DNA from: a virus
Length of the DNA stretch: 36,181 bases
Virus record (IMG/VR): IMGVR_UViG_3300025138_000136
Span: 1-36,181 of that record
Strand: one strand, 5' to 3'
A program made the translations under genes and the position numbers. Of this stretch, positions 1,761 to 26,883 are shown piece after piece (positions within the stretch are counted from its first letter, which is position 1; the number at the start of each line of letters is the position of its first letter). The notes below the pieces were generated by a model, which worked only from the letters and a program-made list of their open reading frames with translations, ran no database searches and was not told where the DNA came from.

Positions 1761-2734
1761 TGGCTTTACCTACCTCTGGCCCATTAACTCTTGATCAAAT
1801 ACACATTGAGGCTGGTGGCTCTAGTGGAGCTTTATGTTCATTAAATGATGCAGACATTAGAGGTATTATTAATAAAAGCGTAAATGCATCAAACGCATTT
1901 TCTGAATATAGAGGCCAAAGCTCTGAAACAACTCTTACATCTGGCGGTACTGTAAACGGTCAGGCTCAAAGGCAAGAAATTACAGTTAGCAGTTTTATTT
2001 CTTCAGGCGGTACTTTGCGTATACCGTCAAATATGTGGGTTTGGTCAGATAGCACATCTACGGCTGCATTAACAATAGATATACCATGTACTGTTATTAA
2101 TGAGGGTAAGGTAATTGGTAAAGGTGGTCAGGGTGGTAATTACGTTGGGGTTAGAGCTACTGCTGGTGGCCCTGCAATTAATGTAACTTCTTCGGGTGTA
2201 ACTTTTACAAATAGTTCTGGTGCTTATGTTGCAGGCGGTGGAGGTGGTGGAGGTTATTACCAAGACCAAAGTAACCCTAGTGATGCCCATGCTGGCGGCG
2301 GCGGCGGTGCTGGTGGTGGAAACGGTGGAACGGGCCGTATAAATCAGGGATATTGGCAAGCTGGTGTTGGTGGAGCATTGAACGCATCAGGAACCGCTGG
2401 CGGTAATGGTGGTAATTCAAATAACGTCACTGGTGGCGGTGGTGGCGCAGGTGGCGGTAGCGGCAGTCAGCAATATGGCGGAGGTGGAGGTGGGCGCATT
2501 TTGCCTGGAACGGGTGGCAGCAGCGCAAGTAATGCTTCAAACGGTGGTAGCGCAGGAAATGCTGGTTCTTCCTCCAGTAACTTTTTGGCTGGTGGCGGCG
2601 GCGGTTGGGGTGCGGCTGGAGCTTACGGTGGAGGTACAACAGGTACATTCTCTAACGGCGGCGCAGGGGGTGCAGCAATATCAGGAACATCAAGAACACT
2701 AAACAATAGTGGCACAATATACGGATCAACATAA
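1760..2734 (+). CDS. Glycine-rich putative receptor-binding tail protein
   Basis: This protein has 324 residues. The N-terminal MALPTSGPLTLDQIHIEAGG plus a segment ending NAFSEYRGQ is a conserved attachment module of marine phage tail proteins. Residues from about 120 to the end are dominated by long glycine runs (for example AGGGGGGGGYY and GGGGGGAGGG), separated by short Ser/Asn/Ala segments. This composition resembles polyglycine-II adhesin tips such as gp38 of T-even phages, which bind receptors with loops projecting from a glycine lattice. That parallel is by composition only. It overlaps its neighbours by TAATG-type junctions on both sides. Frames at 2069-2359, 2406-2702 and 2427-2648 are shadows of the repeats. 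Confidence 0.7.
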   Translation: MALPTSGPLTLDQIHIEAGGSSGALCSLNDADIRGIINKSVNASNAFSEYRGQSSETTLTSGGTVNGQAQRQEITVSSFISSGGTLRIPSNMWVWSDSTSTAALTIDIPCTVINEGKVIGKGGQGGNYVGVRATAGGPAINVTSSGVTFTNSSGAYVAGGGGGGGYYQDQSNPSDAHAGGGGGAGGGNGGTGRINQGYWQAGVGGALNASGTAGGNGGNSNNVTGGGGGAGGGSGSQQYGGGGGGRILPGTGGSSASNASNGGSAGNAGSSSSNFLAGGGGGWGAAGAYGGGTTGTFSNGGAGGAAISGTSRTLNNSGTIYGST

Positions 2735-5700
2735 TGCCTTTAGTACCTTTAGATTTACCAGCAGGATTTTACCGAAACGGCACAGATTACGAAGGGTCTA
2801 ATCGTTGGCGTGACGGTAGTTTAGTCAGATGGCTAGATGGCTCTATGCGTCCTATTGGTGGTTGGGAAGCTAGAAAAAACGGTTTTACTAAAAATCCAGT
2901 TCGGGGAATGCATGCTTGGCAAGATAACAATGGCACGGCTTGGCTTGCAGGCGGTAGCTTCGATGAATTATCTGTAATGACAGGCGCAGGCATTGCTTAC
3001 GATATTACGCCAGATGATTTAGCAGGCGGCAGAGAGAGTGCAGCGGTTAATACTGGTTACGGTTTTGGTTATTATGGTCAGGATTATTACGGCAACCCCA
3101 GACCAGTAAATAGTGACAGTATTCCGCAAGAGGCAAGCACTTGGCAGTTAGATAACTTTGGTCAAAACCTCATAGCATTACATCAGGACGATGGCAGATT
3201 ATTTGAGTGGCCTTTATCTACAACTACTGGTTCTGAGCTAGTTACCAATGGCACGTTTGCATCAGATGCGAACTGGAATAAAGGCGTAAACTGGTCAATA
3301 GCAAATGGCTACGCTTCCTACGCACAACGCAAAGCAACTTTTGCCGCAGATAATACGGTTATTGGTACGCAAACCTTTGCAGTGACAGTTGTTAACGTAG
3401 GCGGTCAGAATAAATATGCTTTTAATGGCGCTGTAGCTCCTGTTTTATCGCTTGTGAGAGGCGTAACGTATACTTTTGATATGAGCAACAACTCTAATAG
3501 TGGACACCCTCTAGCCTTTAAAAATGGCTCTACGGCATACACAACAGGAGTGACAACAACAGGCACGGCAGGAGCGTCAGGATCAAGTGTTGTTATAGCA
3601 GTAGACGCCGCTGCCCCTGCTTCTGGTTTGCTGTATTATTGTACGGTTCATGGTAACGCGATGGGTGCGGCTATCACTACAAGCGCAAATACAGCACCTA
3701 TAAATTATTCTACTGAAACAATTACAGCAACGGCGCATGGCTTTTCTAACGGAAATGAGGTTACTTACACTGTGCCAACAGGACAATCGGCAATAGGCGG
3801 TCTAACCTCTGGTACAAATTACTTTGTAGTTTCTGCGGCAACCAACAGTTTAAAATTAGCGGCAACTTCTGGTGCGGCAGCAATAAATCTAACTGCACCC
3901 TTATCAGTAACAATAAACGGTAGTAGCGGTTCTGTTGTGGTTTTGGCTACTAATAAAATAGTAATTTCCAATACATTTACAAATGGCGATAAGGTTGTTT
4001 ATTCTAACGGAAATGGCACTAATATAACGGGTTTGGTTAACGGTACAGAATATTTTATTGTTGGTGCTAGTTCATCTGAGTTTCAGCTTGCCGCAACATC
4101 AGGTGGCGCAGCAATAGCACTCACAGCATTAGGCACTGGAACGGCTCACAGTTTTACAAAGCGTTTAGGCGCAACGCATCAATTAGCATTAGTAAGCGTT
4201 ATAACAGCTACTGTTTTTGATCAAACGGTAAGTGGTTTAGTTGTAAGCCCAGATAGCCAAGATAGCCATGATTTAGAAATAACACTGATTGATAGAAACG
4301 ATGATGGTGATGCTTCCACAATACCTAATGTGAAAGTTAAAGTTACTGGTACAACTACAAGTACGGTAAACATAGATCAGACGCTTGTAGTTGGATCAAA
4401 TATATTTAGATTTGGCGCAACGGATGCCGCTGTTAAAATAGAAATATTACCACAAGTATATAATACTCCAAATTTTGATATTGATAACGTATCTTTAAAG
4501 AAAAGAACTGTTACCGCGCCAATTGCAAACGCACCAATCGACAATAAGGGTATGGTTGTAACAGAAGAACGTTTTATCTTTGCATTAGGTTCTGGCGGCA
4601 ATAGCCGTAAAGTTTCTTGGTGCGATAAAGAAAACAATACAGTCTGGACGCCAAGTGCAACGAATGAAGCAGGCGATATTGAGTTAGCTACGGCAGGACA
4701 GATAATGCAGGGCATAAGGGGCCGTGGCATTACACTGATTTTAACTGACACAGATGCTCACGTTGCACAGTATATCGCGCCACCTTATGTGTATTCATTT
4801 CAAAGAATTGGAACGCATTGCGGAGCAGTTTCTAGGCTTTCTGCGGTGGCTGTTGACCGTGGTGTGTTTTGGTATGGGCAAGAGAACTTCCATTATTTTG
4901 ATGGTAACACAGTGCAAACATTAAAGTGCGATGTGCATGATTACGTCTTTGGTGATTTTAACAAAGATCAACAATCTAAAGTTTGGGGTATGTCCGTTGG
5001 TTCTGAAGATGAAATCTGGTGGTTTTATTGTTCTGCATCTTCAACAGAAATAGATAGATATGTTGGCTATGATGCGGCAGAGGGTCATTGGCTCATTGGT
5101 AATTTATCAAGAACGTCAGGCGTAAGCAGAGGTGTATTTGCTCATCCGTTTATGGCAGGCGAACTAGCAGAAACATTAGATATAAATGTAAGTGTCGTAA
5201 ATTCTGGTGGTAACAAATATGCGTTTAATACTTATTTGGGTTATGCGCCAACACTACAATTAATCAGAGGCAAAACTTATAAATTCAAACAAGATGCGGC
5301 AAGCAATGCAACGCACCCTTTTAGATTTTCTACGCAACCAAACGGAACGCATGGCGGTGGGGTAGAATATACAGAAGGTGTTACGAAAGTTGGAACGGCA
5401 GGACAGGCAGGCAGCTATACGCAAATAGTCGTTGGGGCTAATACGCCTACTTTGTATTATTATTGCGTTAATCATTCTGGTATGGGATCAACAGCAAATG
5501 TTGTAGAGCCAGTAAGCATATTTAACCATGAATATGGTCATAACTACGACAGCCAACCTATATTCTGCGAAACAAGTAGTATTAGTATTGGTAACGGCGA
5601 TCAGATAGCTAAAGTTACTGAGGTTATACCAGATGAAAAGACGCAAGGTGATGTTAATCTTAAATTTAAAACACGCTTTAATCCTAACGATGTAGAGCGT

Positions 5701-5844
5701 GAATATGGTGCATATAACCCAAGCAACCCTACGTCAGTACGGTTTTCTGGTAGGCAAATCCGCATGAGAGTTGAAGGTGATCAAAATGTGGATTGGCGTG
5801 TGGGTACAATGCGCTTAGATGTAAAAGCAGGGGGCAGACGGTAA
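2734..5844 (+). CDS. Tail hub/DNA-stabilisation protein (P22 gp10-like) with inserted cupredoxin-like domains
   Basis: The protein has 1036 residues. The N-terminus (LPAGFYRNGTDYEGSNRW, then SLVRWLDGSMRPIGGW) and the core around residues 600-800 (APIDNKGMVVTEERFIFALG, RGRGITLILTD, VFWYGQENFHYFDG) match the marine podophage protein I associate with P22 gp10, which plugs the portal and anchors the tail. It is longer than expected because of insertions. Residues about 215-315 and 816-925 are two related domains with His258/Cys303/His306/Met310 and His861/Cys911/His914/Met917, a cupredoxin-like ligand pattern. Residues about 325-480 hold two copies of a fibre repeat (HGFSNGNEVTY...GTNYFVV...LAATSG). 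The ATG overlaps the upstream stop. The hub assignment is by resemblance; the insertions are seen directly. Confidence 0.75.
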   Translation: MPLVPLDLPAGFYRNGTDYEGSNRWRDGSLVRWLDGSMRPIGGWEARKNGFTKNPVRGMHAWQDNNGTAWLAGGSFDELSVMTGAGIAYDITPDDLAGGRESAAVNTGYGFGYYGQDYYGNPRPVNSDSIPQEASTWQLDNFGQNLIALHQDDGRLFEWPLSTTTGSELVTNGTFASDANWNKGVNWSIANGYASYAQRKATFAADNTVIGTQTFAVTVVNVGGQNKYAFNGAVAPVLSLVRGVTYTFDMSNNSNSGHPLAFKNGSTAYTTGVTTTGTAGASGSSVVIAVDAAAPASGLLYYCTVHGNAMGAAITTSANTAPINYSTETITATAHGFSNGNEVTYTVPTGQSAIGGLTSGTNYFVVSAATNSLKLAATSGAAAINLTAPLSVTINGSSGSVVVLATNKIVISNTFTNGDKVVYSNGNGTNITGLVNGTEYFIVGASSSEFQLAATSGGAAIALTALGTGTAHSFTKRLGATHQLALVSVITATVFDQTVSGLVVSPDSQDSHDLEITLIDRNDDGDASTIPNVKVKVTGTTTSTVNIDQTLVVGSNIFRFGATDAAVKIEILPQVYNTPNFDIDNVSLKKRTVTAPIANAPIDNKGMVVTEERFIFALGSGGNSRKVSWCDKENNTVWTPSATNEAGDIELATAGQIMQGIRGRGITLILTDTDAHVAQYIAPPYVYSFQRIGTHCGAVSRLSAVAVDRGVFWYGQENFHYFDGNTVQTLKCDVHDYVFGDFNKDQQSKVWGMSVGSEDEIWWFYCSASSTEIDRYVGYDAAEGHWLIGNLSRTSGVSRGVFAHPFMAGELAETLDINVSVVNSGGNKYAFNTYLGYAPTLQLIRGKTYKFKQDAASNATHPFRFSTQPNGTHGGGVEYTEGVTKVGTAGQAGSYTQIVVGANTPTLYYYCVNHSGMGSTANVVEPVSIFNHEYGHNYDSQPIFCETSSISIGNGDQIAKVTEVIPDEKTQGDVNLKFKTRFNPNDVEREYGAYNPSNPTSVRFSGRQIRMRVEGDQNVDWRVGTMRLDVKAGGRR

Positions 5845-6191
5845 TGCCAGTTACACCGCCTATTCTTGGTGAAGATTTACGACAGTGGGGCAGACAGCTT
5901 AATCTGTTTTTAAGCAGAAACTTAGGTAAGTTATACTTTAAAACTAGTGACGATAACCCAAGCGAAAATGGCATTTTTTTATGGGATGAAGATAAGAATT
6001 ATCCTGTTGTGTCAGCGCAAAACGTTTTTAAGCAGATTGCAATGAAGCAAACCACGCCTAGCTCTAGTGTTGGTGCGGCAGGCGATGCGGCAGGAATGAT
6101 AGCTTGGGATACTAACTATATTTATATTTGTACTGGCACACATAACGGTAGTGCAGCAATTTGGAAGAGGGTAGCATTGTCTACATATTAG
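5844..6191 (+). CDS. Small tail-region structural protein, unknown function
   Basis: The protein has 115 residues starting MPVTPPILGEDLRQWGRQLN. I chose the ATG at 5844 because it forms a TAATG junction with the preceding gene; an earlier ATG at 5793 would lie inside that gene. The first half (EDLRQWGRQLNLFLSRN) is helical. The second half (AAGMIAWDTNYIYICTGTHNGSAAIWKRVALS) is a compact beta module that I associate with short marine phage virion proteins, often next to the tail hub. It is probably a tail or fibre-attachment component, and no enzyme motif is present. Confidence 0.6.
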   Translation: MPVTPPILGEDLRQWGRQLNLFLSRNLGKLYFKTSDDNPSENGIFLWDEDKNYPVVSAQNVFKQIAMKQTTPSSSVGAAGDAAGMIAWDTNYIYICTGTHNGSAAIWKRVALSTY

Positions 6192-6566
6192 ATGCCTAAA
6201 GATACACAAGTAAATGAATTAGAAAGATGCCGCCCTTGGATAGAGGCGGCTTTGGAGTATAGTGGTGGTACACATAGCTTTGAGGATGTGGCAAAAGGTA
6301 TACTTGATGGGAGTATGCAGTTGTGGCCTAGCCCAAGGGGGTGCATTGTTACAGAAATTGTGATATATCCTAGAAAAAAGGCGTTGAACGTGTTTTTAGG
6401 CGGTGGTGAGCTAGATCAGTTGTTAGATATGCACAATGATGTTACAGATTGGGCAAAGAGCTATGGATGTGAAGCTTTGACGATTACAGGTCGTTTTGGA
6501 TGGAAGAAACCTTTGAAGGCGCATGGTTGGAAGCCATTGCACGCTTCATTTCAAAAGGAGATATAA
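6192..6566 (+). CDS. GNAT-like fold phage protein
   Basis: The protein has 124 residues. The pattern of an N-terminal helix (RCRPWIEAALEYSGGTHSFEDVAKGILDG), then strands (LWPSPRGCIVTEIVIYPRKKALNVFLGGGE), then a helix with CEALTITGRFGWKKPLKAHGWK, resembles small GNAT-fold proteins found beside the ejection-protein genes of T7-like and marine podophages. In that family the acetyl-CoA loop is usually degenerate, and it is not convincing here either. The protein may therefore be a structural or assembly factor rather than an active acetyltransferase. The start abuts the preceding stop. The following gene begins 2 bases after this stop. Confidence 0.6.
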   Translation: MPKDTQVNELERCRPWIEAALEYSGGTHSFEDVAKGILDGSMQLWPSPRGCIVTEIVIYPRKKALNVFLGGGELDQLLDMHNDVTDWAKSYGCEALTITGRFGWKKPLKAHGWKPLHASFQKEI

Positions 6567-11062: not shown

Positions 11063-13165
11063 ATGGAACTTAAAGCTAAAACAGAATTAGAGATAGAAAG
11101 CATTGTTCAGGCCGCTATTGATGACGCAGTAGACTTTGTTGAAAGCGAAATATCTGAGGATAGAATAACTGCTCAACGCTACTACGATGGCGAAGTTGAT
11201 ATAGGCTTTGAGGATGGGCGCAGCAAAGTAGTCGCCACTAAGGTTCGGGATACTGTGCGTGCGATTAAACCGTCATTGATGCGTGTGTTTCTAAGCACTG
11301 CAAGACCAGTAGAATTTATGCCGCATGGCCCAGAAGATGTGAACATGGCAGAGCAGGCAACTGATTATGTTCATTATGAGTTTCAGCGCAGCAATGGTTA
11401 TAGGGTGTTGAATGATGCGTTTCACGATGCGCTAATCAAGAAACAAGGTATAGTAAAAGCATACTGGGAAGAAATGCCAGAAGCAGAAATTTACACTTAC
11501 ACAAATTTATCTGATGATGAGTATACCTTTTTAGTGCAGGATGATGAAGTAACGGTTCTTGAACATACTGTCGAGCAGGAGATGAGTATGGATGAACAAG
11601 GCGCTGAGATAAAAACGCCTGTTCATTCTGCTAAAGTTTCAAGAAAAGCATACGCTGGCTGTTTAAAGATAGAAAGTGTGCCGCCAGAAGAGTTCTTTGT
11701 AGATCGAAATTGCAGAACTCTAGAGGATGCTCATGTTGTTGTTCACCGCACAGAGATGCGTGCTAGTGATTTAATATCAATGGGCTTTGAGGCAGACATG
11801 GTGCTTGACCTAGACAGCTTTGATTCAGGTACAGAAATTACTGAAGCAGAGCGTATTGAGAGACAGGGTTATTCAGATGATTTTAGCGAAACAAGCTCTG
11901 ATCCATCCATGCGTTCTGTTACTGTAACAGAAGCTTATATGAGGGTGGACGTTGATGGAACAGGGGTTGCTGTGTTGCATAGATTTCTATGCGGTGGAAC
12001 TAAGTACAAGCTGCTAGATTATGATTTAGCAGACGAGTTACCTTTTGCAAAATTTGAAGTAGATCCAGAACCGCACACATTCTATGGCAGAAGTATTGCT
12101 GATCTAATTTTAGATGATCAGGACGCAGCAACCTCTATTTTAAGAGGTATATTAGATAACGTAGCCATGACTAATAACCCCAGAATTGGCATAGTCGATG
12201 GTGCAGTTAACATAGACGATGTTCTAAACAACGAAATAGGTGCAATCGTTCGTATGCGTCAAGCAGGAGCAGTGCAGGATTTAGCTGTGCCGTTTACCGC
12301 AGGACAGACGTTAGGCGCACTTACATACTTAGATCAGCTTGTAGAGGGTAAGACAGGCGTTACCAGAGCTTCTATGGGGCTAGACCCTGATGCTATGCAG
12401 TCTACAACTAAGGCTGCTGTACAGGCCACTGTGCAGGCCGCAGCAGGGCAAGTAGAGGTGATGGTTCGTAATCTGGCAGACGGAGCAAGAGATTTATTTG
12501 GCTTGATGTTAAGATTGCTGCAAAAGAATATGGAAGATGGCGCAATGATGCGTATGAATGGGCGTTTCCAGCCTGTTGATCCAAAAGCTTTTGACATAGA
12601 TATGGACGTTACTATTAATGTAGGGCTTGGCACTGGTAGAGAGGAAGAAAAAACAAACGCTCTTGCTATGGCATTGCAGCAACAAACTATGGTATATCAG
12701 ACATATGGCCCTATGAATGGCTTGGTATCACTAACAAACATCCGTAATACCCTTACAGATATGTTAGCCTCTAGCGGAATTAGAAATGCAGATCGTTACT
12801 TTGCACCAATTACGCCAGAGATTGAAATGCAACTATTGCAGATGCAACAGCAACAGCAAGCGGCATTAGCAGGGCAAAATCAACCACAAGACCCTGCGGC
12901 TGTGATGGCGCAAGCTGAACAAATGAAAGCACAAACCAGAGCGCAAGTTGATTTACAAAGAGCGCAAATGGATGATGCTAGAAAGCGCGAAGATATGACT
13001 ATGCAGGATGATCTAAAAAGAGATCAGATGGCGCAAAATTTATATGTTGATGCCGCTAAAACGTTAGGTCAATATGGTTCATCAGTAGACATAGCTAGAA
13101 TTAAGGCAGAGCAGGAAAAAGAACGTCAGATAAATGACATGACTGCCAGAGCAGCAGGTTTATGA
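11063..13165 (+). CDS. Portal protein (P22-like)
   Basis: The protein has 700 residues, a normal length for P22-type portals. Recognisable segments include RYYDGEVDIGFEDGRSKVV and VRDTVRAIKPSLMRVF in the N-terminal region, and IADLILDDQDAATSILRGIL followed by NNPRIGIVDGAVN in the core. Then come GVTRASMGLDPDAMQSTTKA and a Gln-rich C-terminal coiled-coil part (LLQMQQQQQAALAGQNQ, near residue 595). The portal is a dodecameric ring at one vertex through which DNA is packaged and ejected. The next gene overlaps the stop by ATGA. The Gln/Met-rich C-terminal helices may form the barrel extending into the head, as in P22. Confidence 0.9.
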   Translation: MELKAKTELEIESIVQAAIDDAVDFVESEISEDRITAQRYYDGEVDIGFEDGRSKVVATKVRDTVRAIKPSLMRVFLSTARPVEFMPHGPEDVNMAEQATDYVHYEFQRSNGYRVLNDAFHDALIKKQGIVKAYWEEMPEAEIYTYTNLSDDEYTFLVQDDEVTVLEHTVEQEMSMDEQGAEIKTPVHSAKVSRKAYAGCLKIESVPPEEFFVDRNCRTLEDAHVVVHRTEMRASDLISMGFEADMVLDLDSFDSGTEITEAERIERQGYSDDFSETSSDPSMRSVTVTEAYMRVDVDGTGVAVLHRFLCGGTKYKLLDYDLADELPFAKFEVDPEPHTFYGRSIADLILDDQDAATSILRGILDNVAMTNNPRIGIVDGAVNIDDVLNNEIGAIVRMRQAGAVQDLAVPFTAGQTLGALTYLDQLVEGKTGVTRASMGLDPDAMQSTTKAAVQATVQAAAGQVEVMVRNLADGARDLFGLMLRLLQKNMEDGAMMRMNGRFQPVDPKAFDIDMDVTINVGLGTGREEEKTNALAMALQQQTMVYQTYGPMNGLVSLTNIRNTLTDMLASSGIRNADRYFAPITPEIEMQLLQMQQQQQAALAGQNQPQDPAAVMAQAEQMKAQTRAQVDLQRAQMDDARKREDMTMQDDLKRDQMAQNLYVDAAKTLGQYGSSVDIARIKAEQEKERQINDMTARAAGL

Positions 13166-14419: not shown

Positions 14420-15376
14420 ATGGCACAACCAACAAATACATTTGACACCTATGATGCCATTGGTATCAGGGAAGATTTATCAGATATGATCTACAACGTT
14501 GATCCATCTGAAACTCCATTTTATTCTAAGGCGAGTAAAACCAAAGCAAAAAACACTCTGGTAGAGTGGCAAACTCAAGCATTACGCGCTTCAGCCGTAA
14601 ATGCTCACATCGAAGGAGATGCAACATCAGCTAATGCAGTTACTCCAACTGTACGTCTTGGCGCACGCACACAGATTTTCAAAAATGCTGTGATCGTGTC
14701 CGATACGGATGAAGCAGTCGATAATGCAGGCCGTGCTAGAGAGCTTGCATACCAAACTTTGCTCATTGCTAAAGAGCAAAAATTGGACATCGAAAAGGCT
14801 TTATTTGCGAACCAAGGAAACGTAGCTGGCTCTTCAACTGCTGCTCGAAAGACTGGTGGCGTACCATCATGGCTGATTACAAATGTAAATTTTGTTTCAG
14901 CTAGTTCTGGTGCAAATCCAACAGGCGACGGCTCGAATGCTCGCACAGACAGCGGCGCACCAACTGCATTTACGCAGGCCAAGTTTGACGACGTTATGCA
15001 GTCAATCTGGGAAGAGGGCGGAAAGCCAGATACTTGTTATCTGTCAGCCTTTCAGATGAATGTTGCTTTGGGCTTCACTGGTAACAATAACCAGCGTTCA
15101 GGCGTACAAGCTGGCGACGAAACTGTTGTTAAGTCACTCGCAGTATATGTGACGCCTTGGGGTACAGTGCAGTTCCACCCATCTAGAGAGAACCGTTCAC
15201 GCGATATATTTATCCTTCAGGATGATATGTGGGAAACCGCAATCTTGCGTGGAACTAAGAATGTTGCGTTGGCAAAAAATGGCGACAACACTACTCGTCA
15301 GGTCACAACCGAATTGGCTCTTTGCTCAAAGAACGAAAAAGCCAACGGCGCGATTTACGACAACACAACTTCTTAA
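14420..15376 (+). CDS. Major capsid protein (SU10/DUF5309-type HK97-fold)
   Basis: The protein has 318 residues. The N-terminus (NTFDTYDAIGIREDLSDMIY followed by PSETPFYSKASK) and the central phrases VEWQTQAL and VSDTDEAVDNAGRARELAYQ match the SU10-type major capsid family, expected to adopt the HK97 fold. The length is normal for the family. The ribosome site is AAAGGAAAT before the ATG. This is the main shell protein, made in hundreds of copies. A hairpin (15386-15411) follows the gene. Codon use includes more GC-ending codons than the neighbouring fibre genes, as often seen for highly expressed capsid genes; this is an impression, not a calculation. Confidence 0.9.
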   Translation: MAQPTNTFDTYDAIGIREDLSDMIYNVDPSETPFYSKASKTKAKNTLVEWQTQALRASAVNAHIEGDATSANAVTPTVRLGARTQIFKNAVIVSDTDEAVDNAGRARELAYQTLLIAKEQKLDIEKALFANQGNVAGSSTAARKTGGVPSWLITNVNFVSASSGANPTGDGSNARTDSGAPTAFTQAKFDDVMQSIWEEGGKPDTCYLSAFQMNVALGFTGNNNQRSGVQAGDETVVKSLAVYVTPWGTVQFHPSRENRSRDIFILQDDMWETAILRGTKNVALAKNGDNTTRQVTTELALCSKNEKANGAIYDNTTS

Positions 15377-25965: not shown

Positions 25966-26883
25966 TTAAGACGCTACTTTTGTTACTGTTATGGGTAGGT
26001 TTCTTTGCTCTGTGTTTTGTTCAGCAGCTTCTAAAATGAATGTTGCAGCTTTGTCAGCAGCGCTTGCAGCTTTTTGTATAGCATCAGGTTTACTCTTTAG
26101 ACACTCAATCCAACTGTTTAAATATTTAGCATGATCTGCGCGTGGTTCAGCGTCAATTTTAGTCAGACCTGATAAAATGGCGCTTGTTAATTCTGCTATC
26201 AATTCTTCAAAAGCATAACCATCAGAGCCAAAGCGAGTACCAAATTTGCGGTCTAATCTTTCTTTGCTGCCCGTCCAATGTCCTAACTCGTGAAACAGTG
26301 TGCCGTAGTAGCCCGAAGCATTTTTAAACTGCTCTTTGCTTGGCATATTAATAGTGTCGTTTGAAGGTCTGTAATAGGCGCTATTTGCGTCTTCATTTAC
26401 AAATTTAGCACCTGATAATTGAGCAAGGTTTTCTGCGTCAATAACGTCTGACCAATCCTGATTTAGCTTCTTTTCTTCAGGTAAAAAATCACCTTTCCAA
26501 CCTTTAACATATTGAGAGTTAAAAACAGGCCAAGATTTCCATTTAGGATAAAGTTTTTCTTCACCTGTTTTCTTATCTTCATATTTAATAAGTGACCAGA
26601 AAACAATTCTTATGCCTTTACCTTTAGCACCTTCTAATTCGTAGCCTAAACTTTGCCATTGATTATAGGTTGCAAAAACAGGTGAAGTATAACCTCTAGC
26701 AGCCATAAGCATTGATAAATTAATTCTGTTAATACCGCTATATTGATGCTTTCTAGCACTCATTGGTTGATTGTGCTGCAATACATTTACCCAAGGTTTT
26801 ACCCAATTGATGCCCGCTGTAGCCATGTCTGAAGTAACTCTAGAAGTTATTTCGTGCATTACTTGTGTTGTCTTTTTGTCCAT
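25966..26883 (-). CDS. ArdC-like antirestriction protein with zinc metallopeptidase motif
   Basis: The protein has 305 residues. The N-terminal half has the ArdC-type DNA-binding pattern (TAGINWVKPW, YSGINRINLSMLMAARGY, ATYNQWQSLG, then KGKGIRIVFW). The C-terminal half has the zincin motif HELGHW (His198, Glu199, His202) and a downstream FEELIAELTSA that can supply the third ligand. ArdC proteins protect incoming plasmid or phage DNA from restriction and bind single-stranded DNA; the length fits the family. It is first in the leftward operon, behind a GAAAGGTTAA leader and the promoter region at 26939-26976. The target of the peptidase is unknown. Confidence 0.85.
   Translation of the reverse strand: MDKKTTQVMHEITSRVTSDMATAGINWVKPWVNVLQHNQPMSARKHQYSGINRINLSMLMAARGYTSPVFATYNQWQSLGYELEGAKGKGIRIVFWSLIKYEDKKTGEEKLYPKWKSWPVFNSQYVKGWKGDFLPEEKKLNQDWSDVIDAENLAQLSGAKFVNEDANSAYYRPSNDTINMPSKEQFKNASGYYGTLFHELGHWTGSKERLDRKFGTRFGSDGYAFEELIAELTSAILSGLTKIDAEPRADHAKYLNSWIECLKSKPDAIQKAASAADKAATFILEAAEQNTEQRNLPITVTKVAS

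Follow-up and report, generated by a model that had tools for sequence, protein, structure and literature searches.

In podovirus SU10, four Ig-like nozzle domains lie between blades 2 and 3 of the nozzle's beta-propeller, form the blunt tip of the tail, and straighten upon phage attachment (PMC9509320). Metals are also known from phage tails; His-x-His fiber tips bind iron, for which a Ferrojan or Trojan horse role has been proposed (PMC11705849). The cupredoxin superfamily and the tail nozzle protein are thus both known already, yet a recurrent copper-site module on virions appears to be undescribed in the open-access literature. No description of a virion cupredoxin was found in the open-access literature searched, in keeping with the original prediction for this locus, made from its sequence, that such a fold on a virion would be new.

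The protein considered here is a podoviral tail nozzle with two added domains, D1 and D2. These are likely to be true cupredoxins with complete type 1 copper sites, carried as removable modules on the outside of the nozzle, with docking as their tentatively proposed role.

The Nozzle Gene and Its Genomic Context

The window, meaning the whole 36,181-base stretch of DNA that was analyzed, is a podovirus record with genes for an SU10-type portal, a scaffold, a major head protein, a helicase-primase, a terminase, and a tail spike. Judged by its portal and nozzle core, the virus is closest, among named relatives, to Octadecabacter Antarctic DB virus 2, whose 492-aa nozzle, gp13, has neither D1 nor D2. 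The gene of interest (2734..5844, + strand) encodes 1036 amino acids and lies next to a portal-tail gene block, with the portal at 11063-13165 and the major capsid protein at 14420-15376. Initially taken for a tail hub protein, the product is now identified as a tail nozzle of the SU10, P22 gp10, and T7 gp12 type. Profile A4, built from 49 nozzle relatives, matched a tail protein of Pseudomonas phage Pa223 in the PDB (9nwi_Y, 1.5e-22) and the Vibrio phage VP1 nozzle (8zkm and 8zkk, 3e-14 and 7e-14), and a fold search with the full-length model, itself moderate to weak (pLDDT 73, pTM 0.47), returned Pa223, the SU10 nozzle, VP1, P22 gp10, and T7 tail complexes. By analogy with the C6 structures of relatives (PMC9509320), the nozzle would form a hexamer at the end of the tail.

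Two other genes of the window deserve mention. Just upstream of the nozzle gene, positions 1760-2734 encode a glycine-rich protein, likely a fiber or adhesin, with weak similarity to the T-even Gp38 adhesin (PF05268, 1.4e-4, below the cut-off) and to tail fiber PHROGs. An anti-restriction protein (phrog_7245, 1.8e-70) is encoded at 25966-26883 on the minus strand, opposite to nearly all other genes.

Insertions and Modularity of the Nozzle

The minimal core of the nozzle comprises approximately residues 1-163, 595-808, and 929-1036. Between these parts lie insertion 1 (residues ~164-594; 3223..4515, + strand) and insertion 2 (residues ~809-928; 5158..5517, + strand), the latter consisting of D2 and short linkers, and nozzle alignments show clean absence at exactly these two points. 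Insertion 1 is missing from relatives of ~494 aa and is present without D1 in three nozzles (L185-L187), and insertion 2 is precisely absent from L170-L182 and from the ~494-aa relatives. As these short relatives have neither D1 nor D2, the suggestion that both domains sit outside the core holds.

The same modularity is seen among nozzles fetched by core sequence alone. About forty, of roughly 494-600 aa, carry neither domain; others carry only D2 (L007, L008, L010, L191, and L193), only D1 (L168, L170-L175, and L178-L182), or both (L004-L006, L085, and L183), and one (L169) carries D1 twice in tandem. The nozzle core would accordingly be expected to assemble without D1 and D2.

Insertion 1 is a candidate equivalent of the SU10 nozzle domains and probably occupies the same insertion point, and D1 would then lie within the insertion that forms the tail-tip domains in SU10. 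D2 belongs to the second, C-terminal insertion, in the part where SU10 has its short-fiber dock loop (Trp839-857), a comparison of position only. To the eye, insertion 1 also resembles a jelly-roll or carbohydrate-binding domain split into halves (ELVTNGTFASDANWNKG... and ...FDIDNVSLKK), with D1 and two similar beta repeats of ~75 aa nested inside them; insertion 1 of the relatives gave no Pfam match, and membership in a carbohydrate-binding family is an impression only.

Predicted Cupredoxin Domains D1 and D2

D1 spans residues 213-317 (3370..3684, + strand) and D2 residues 814-924 (5173..5505, + strand). The proposed ligands are all present in the 2734..5844 reading frame as originally predicted. 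In D1, the first His is H258 (codon 3505..3507, + strand) and the ligand loop (3640..3663, + strand) supplies C303 (3640-3642), H306 (3649-3651), and M310 (3661-3663), all in invariant columns. In D2, the first His is H861 (codon 5314..5316, + strand), invariant column H51 of alignment A1, and the loop (5464..5484, + strand) supplies C911 (5464-5466), H914 (5473-5475), and M917 (5482-5484), which are invariant columns C101, H104, and M107. Both domains thus have the canonical type 1 order of His, Cys, His, and axial Met. The motif N-x2-HP-(38-60)-C-x2-H-x2/3-M occurs twice in the nozzle and in none of the other open reading frames of the window; chance can be ruled out as its source, since none of 20,000 shuffles of the nozzle protein contained it.

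A model of D2 (AF2), built from 65 relatives, has a pLDDT of 95.8 and a pTM of 0.89. Its top fold matches in the PDB are all cupredoxins, led by a three-domain copper nitrite reductase (2dv6, E 4e-4, TM 0.62 on the query) and including rusticyanin (5e-4), multicopper oxidases, and AcoP. D1 shows the identical succession of nine strands in the full-length model (pLDDT 73). The check proposed with the original prediction, a Greek-key cupredoxin fold, is therefore borne out by the D2 model and its PDB matches, and for D1 by its sharing of the D2 strand order. At the level of sequence, plastocyanins are retrieved by the family profile (E 3e-4 to 1e-3), the ligands of the two falling in register, and single divergent members of the family match PF00127 (1.1e-5) and the TIGR02656 model of plastocyanin (4.7e-7); the D1 and D2 copies of the window alone gave no Pfam match above the cut-off. 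On the modeled fold and the sequence relation together, D1 and D2 are placed in the cupredoxin superfamily.

D1 and D2 are related, as had been noticed, with 47% identity over 99 aa. In a tree, the subfamily of D1 (C-x2-H-x3-M) has a short loop and consists of phage proteins, and that of D2 (C-x2-H-x2-M) has a long loop and also includes cellular copies. A simple or recent internal duplication from D1 to D2 is unsupported by this tree of 100 columns and modest support; because the domains fall in different subfamilies, they were probably acquired separately.

Conservation of the Predicted Ligands

The only invariant residues in alignment A1 are F41, H51, C101, H104, and M107 (D2 numbering), and when 251 distinct copies are compared over 91 columns, those of the four ligands rank first to fourth in conservation. 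All four ligands are present in 249 of the 251 copies, and they remain the most conserved columns at sequence identities down to ~25-30%. The patterns used to retrieve some of the loci include the Cys-His loop, so retrieval bias was controlled for in three ways. The ligands were kept in all 31 copies retrieved only via the nozzle core, a search blind to the motif, and in all 15 copies found by tblastn in named phage records; masking of the ligand columns in the search model left the count of copies with all four at 249 of 251. Retrieval bias is thereby ruled out as the source of the conservation. Two additional matches of the masked model were short fragments and not cupredoxins.

CAT and CAC are used in about equal shares for the ligand His residues, and both codons for Cys occur, so it is the residue that is conserved and not the DNA. 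These comparisons indicate strong purifying selection on the ligand set; together with the fold, this supports the type 1 copper ligand set proposed at the outset. Fold, ligand set, modularity, and selection on the ligands are computed properties of these domains; copper binding of type 1 is very likely for both D1 and D2, with copper as the probable metal.

The two copies that have lost the copper ligands are L271 (5539-6927; N/C/T/A at the four positions) and L065 (8161-12291; H/S/D/M). They show that the fold can persist without ligands and that ligand loss is rare, and they offer natural controls for a ligand-free fold. With 249 of 251 copies complete, the family differs from metal-free cupredoxins of the ephrin type, in which the ligands are lost.

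Distribution in Marine Phages and Plankton

D2 matches 81 of 50,697 phage records, which are marine as far as named: phages of Synechococcus, Prochlorococcus, Pelagibacter, and Methylophilales (OM43), marine single-virus and fosmid records, and one phage with its host unstated. D1 matches 53 records, nearly all of them Synechococcus phages. No enteric, Pseudomonas, or soil phages were among the matched records from this search. The carriers differ in their place in the particle. Among them are the protein just downstream of the portal in S-TIM5, T7-type tail fibers in pelagiphages, and gp9-like connectors and baseplate wedge proteins in cyanomyoviruses.

In cells, the domain is part of lipobox proteins, combined with cadherin or Ig parts in SAR86, SAR92, OM182, and other gammaproteobacteria and with collagen-like parts in Poseidoniales archaea. 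These proteins (L244, L245, L247, L248, L250, L251, L259, L268, and L270; L254 and L256-L265) may represent a family of surface copper-binding lipoproteins of ocean plankton; inspection of the gene lists of four loci revealed no copper genes beside them, a point that weighs against the main reading.

Several further occurrences were recorded. Four Pelagibacteraceae single-cell contigs (L249, L252, L253, and L255; ~4699-6459) encode a T7-type tail fiber with the copper-site domain (PF03906, E 7.5e-35 in L249), and the presence of this fiber on contigs of 70-133 kb suggests pelagiphage proviruses. Phage-type proteins of 265 aa (L018, 2694-3488; L239-L243), on MAG contigs that may be phage, combine an N-terminal, zinc-finger-like C-x2-C-G-F-R-Y part with the domain at the C-terminus. 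The D2 model also matched three BFVD entries (A0A481Z6J5, A0A481Z7Q7, and A0A481YVH3; E ~1e-6 to 2e-5), each a 'Beta-sandwich protein' from pithovirus or marseillevirus metagenomes.

Possible Roles of the Copper Sites

Type 1 sites have a very high affinity for Cu(I) and Cu(II), cupredoxins generally reach their fold in the apo form, and free copper is almost absent from the bacterial cytoplasm. Since virions are assembled in this reducing, copper-poor compartment, newly released particles are probably metal-free, and their sites would probably take up copper only once lysis has occurred, either in seawater or at the surface of the next cell. A hexameric nozzle, as in related solved tails, would bring twelve sites to each particle. 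D1 and D2, once loaded with metal, may serve as docking modules, aiding a copper-dependent grip of the tail tip on the host envelope or on surface polymers. From the evidence above we infer copper as the metal, the time of its loading, the exposure of the domains, and this docking role. Docking is favored on two grounds: the carriers are without exception surface proteins, of either virions or cells, and D1 is expected at the tail tip; taken by itself, the docking role is nevertheless put forward tentatively, and the exposure of the domains on the particle rests on homology, given the weak full-length model (pLDDT 73, pTM 0.47).

The main rival to docking is structural stabilization, in which copper would pin an Ig-like decoration domain so that it withstands unfolding as well as the proteases and oxidants of seawater, while playing no part in host contact, much as iron is held by His-x-His pairs in fiber tips of the T4 type. 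Metal-stabilized fibers are known from the SU10 short fiber (PMC9509320) and T4 gp37 (PMC11705849), and carriers at many positions of the particle, not at tips alone, would suit a pin; the wide variation in carrier position fits general decoration as well as it fits a receptor-binding tip. If the role were purely structural, some lineages should nevertheless have been able to replace one ligand or another, yet all four are retained in 249 of 251 copies, and the general capacity of apo-cupredoxins to fold metal-free also speaks against a need for the pin. This explanation is possible, though on the unlikely side.

Extended beyond the nozzle, the docking proposal becomes a broader one, in which marine phages of several unrelated tail types would share a common copper-dependent attachment module, placed on the nozzle, fiber, or baseplate. 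Copper would be taken from seawater or the host surface, and the loaded form would recognize or hold the host, making the module a copper analogue of the 'Trojan horse' proposed for iron. In this general form the proposal is doubtful.

A narrower variant is a copper 'Ferrojan horse', whereby the loaded domain mimics a copper carrier and is recognized by a copper-uptake system in the host outer membrane. An argument of this kind has been put forward for the iron of phage tail fibers (PMC11705849), and members of the domain family are also displayed on surface lipoproteins of marine bacteria and archaea, so that the domain is already in use at the cell surface. Yet the use of one domain family across Synechococcus, Pelagibacter, and Methylophilales hosts argues against a single receptor, leaving this variant clearly unlikely. 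A redox role, with the copper center exchanging electrons at the host surface or scavenging copper or reactive oxygen around the particle, would draw on the classical function of type 1 sites in electron transfer and on the closest solved relatives, which are electron carriers and copper enzymes; the nozzle, however, has no partner, second copper site, or enzymatic domain, and twelve fixed sites per particle amount to a small redox capacity, so that such a role is very unlikely. That the fold is simply a convenient beta-sandwich, with His, Cys, His, and Met as inherited baggage, is hardly credible, since L271 and L065 are the only degenerate copies among 251 and the ligands are the top conserved columns even at ~25-30% identity.

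Docking by metal-loaded modules thus remains the preferred, if tentative, reading, and parts of the wider significance depend on copper being bound. With copper as the presumed metal, protein-bound copper is probably present on the exterior of the particle in many ocean phages. If so, phages would belong to the sea's pool of strong copper ligands, and copper chemistry could be tested for an effect on the way ocean phages locate and enter their hosts, which include some of Earth's most abundant cells. The recurrence of the domain in cyanophages, pelagiphages, OM43 phages, and uncultured marine podoviruses, with copper ligands as its most conserved feature, also offers a molecular handle for proteins whose present annotation goes no further than 'virion structural protein' or 'tail fiber'.

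Comparison with Known Systems

The same domain, with 40-64% identity and the ligands kept, is found in the cyanophage proteins phrog_27200, phrog_30742, phrog_693, the C-terminal part of phrog_677, and S-TIM5 AEZ65678. These are annotated as virion structural, tail fiber, or baseplate proteins, and the annotations seen do not mention a copper site, although database entries for some carriers may bear a generic 'cupredoxin' signature.

With plastocyanin, amicyanin, and rusticyanin (PF00127 and kin), D1 and D2 share the predicted Greek-key beta-sandwich, the His...Cys-x2-His-x2/3/4-Met order, the Y-Y-C and M-x-G contexts, and the profile and fold matches. The spacing between His and Met is x4 in plastocyanin, x3 in D1, and x2 in D2, the last being the spacing of amicyanin. 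Unlike these small blue copper proteins, the nozzle domains have a long G-x-x-Y-T-T-G-V-T-x-x-G-T-A-G loop region, and whereas plastocyanin and amicyanin are free electron carriers, secreted or lumenal, that have redox partners of their own, D1 and D2 are internal to a 1036-aa virion protein and fall outside that group. The N-terminal cupredoxin domain of nitrite reductase 2dv6 is likewise an add-on module, but it feeds electrons to a catalytic copper site, a partner that the nozzle does not have.

Among podoviral nozzles, the protein shares a common core in sequence and fold with SU10 gp17, P22 gp10, T7 gp12, VP1 gp16, and Pa223. As in SU10, its beta-propeller would be interrupted by extra beta-sandwich domains (PMC9509320); those of SU10 are described as Ig-like and metal-free, whereas two of the insertions here are predicted cupredoxins. 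With the iron fiber tips, finally, the nozzle would share a transition metal in a tail protein of (marine) phages (PMC11705849). The means of holding it would differ: fiber-tip iron is octahedral and lies between the chains of a trimeric fiber with repeated H-x-H, whereas each nozzle site has a single His, Cys, His, and Met and would be held within one globular, folded copper domain.
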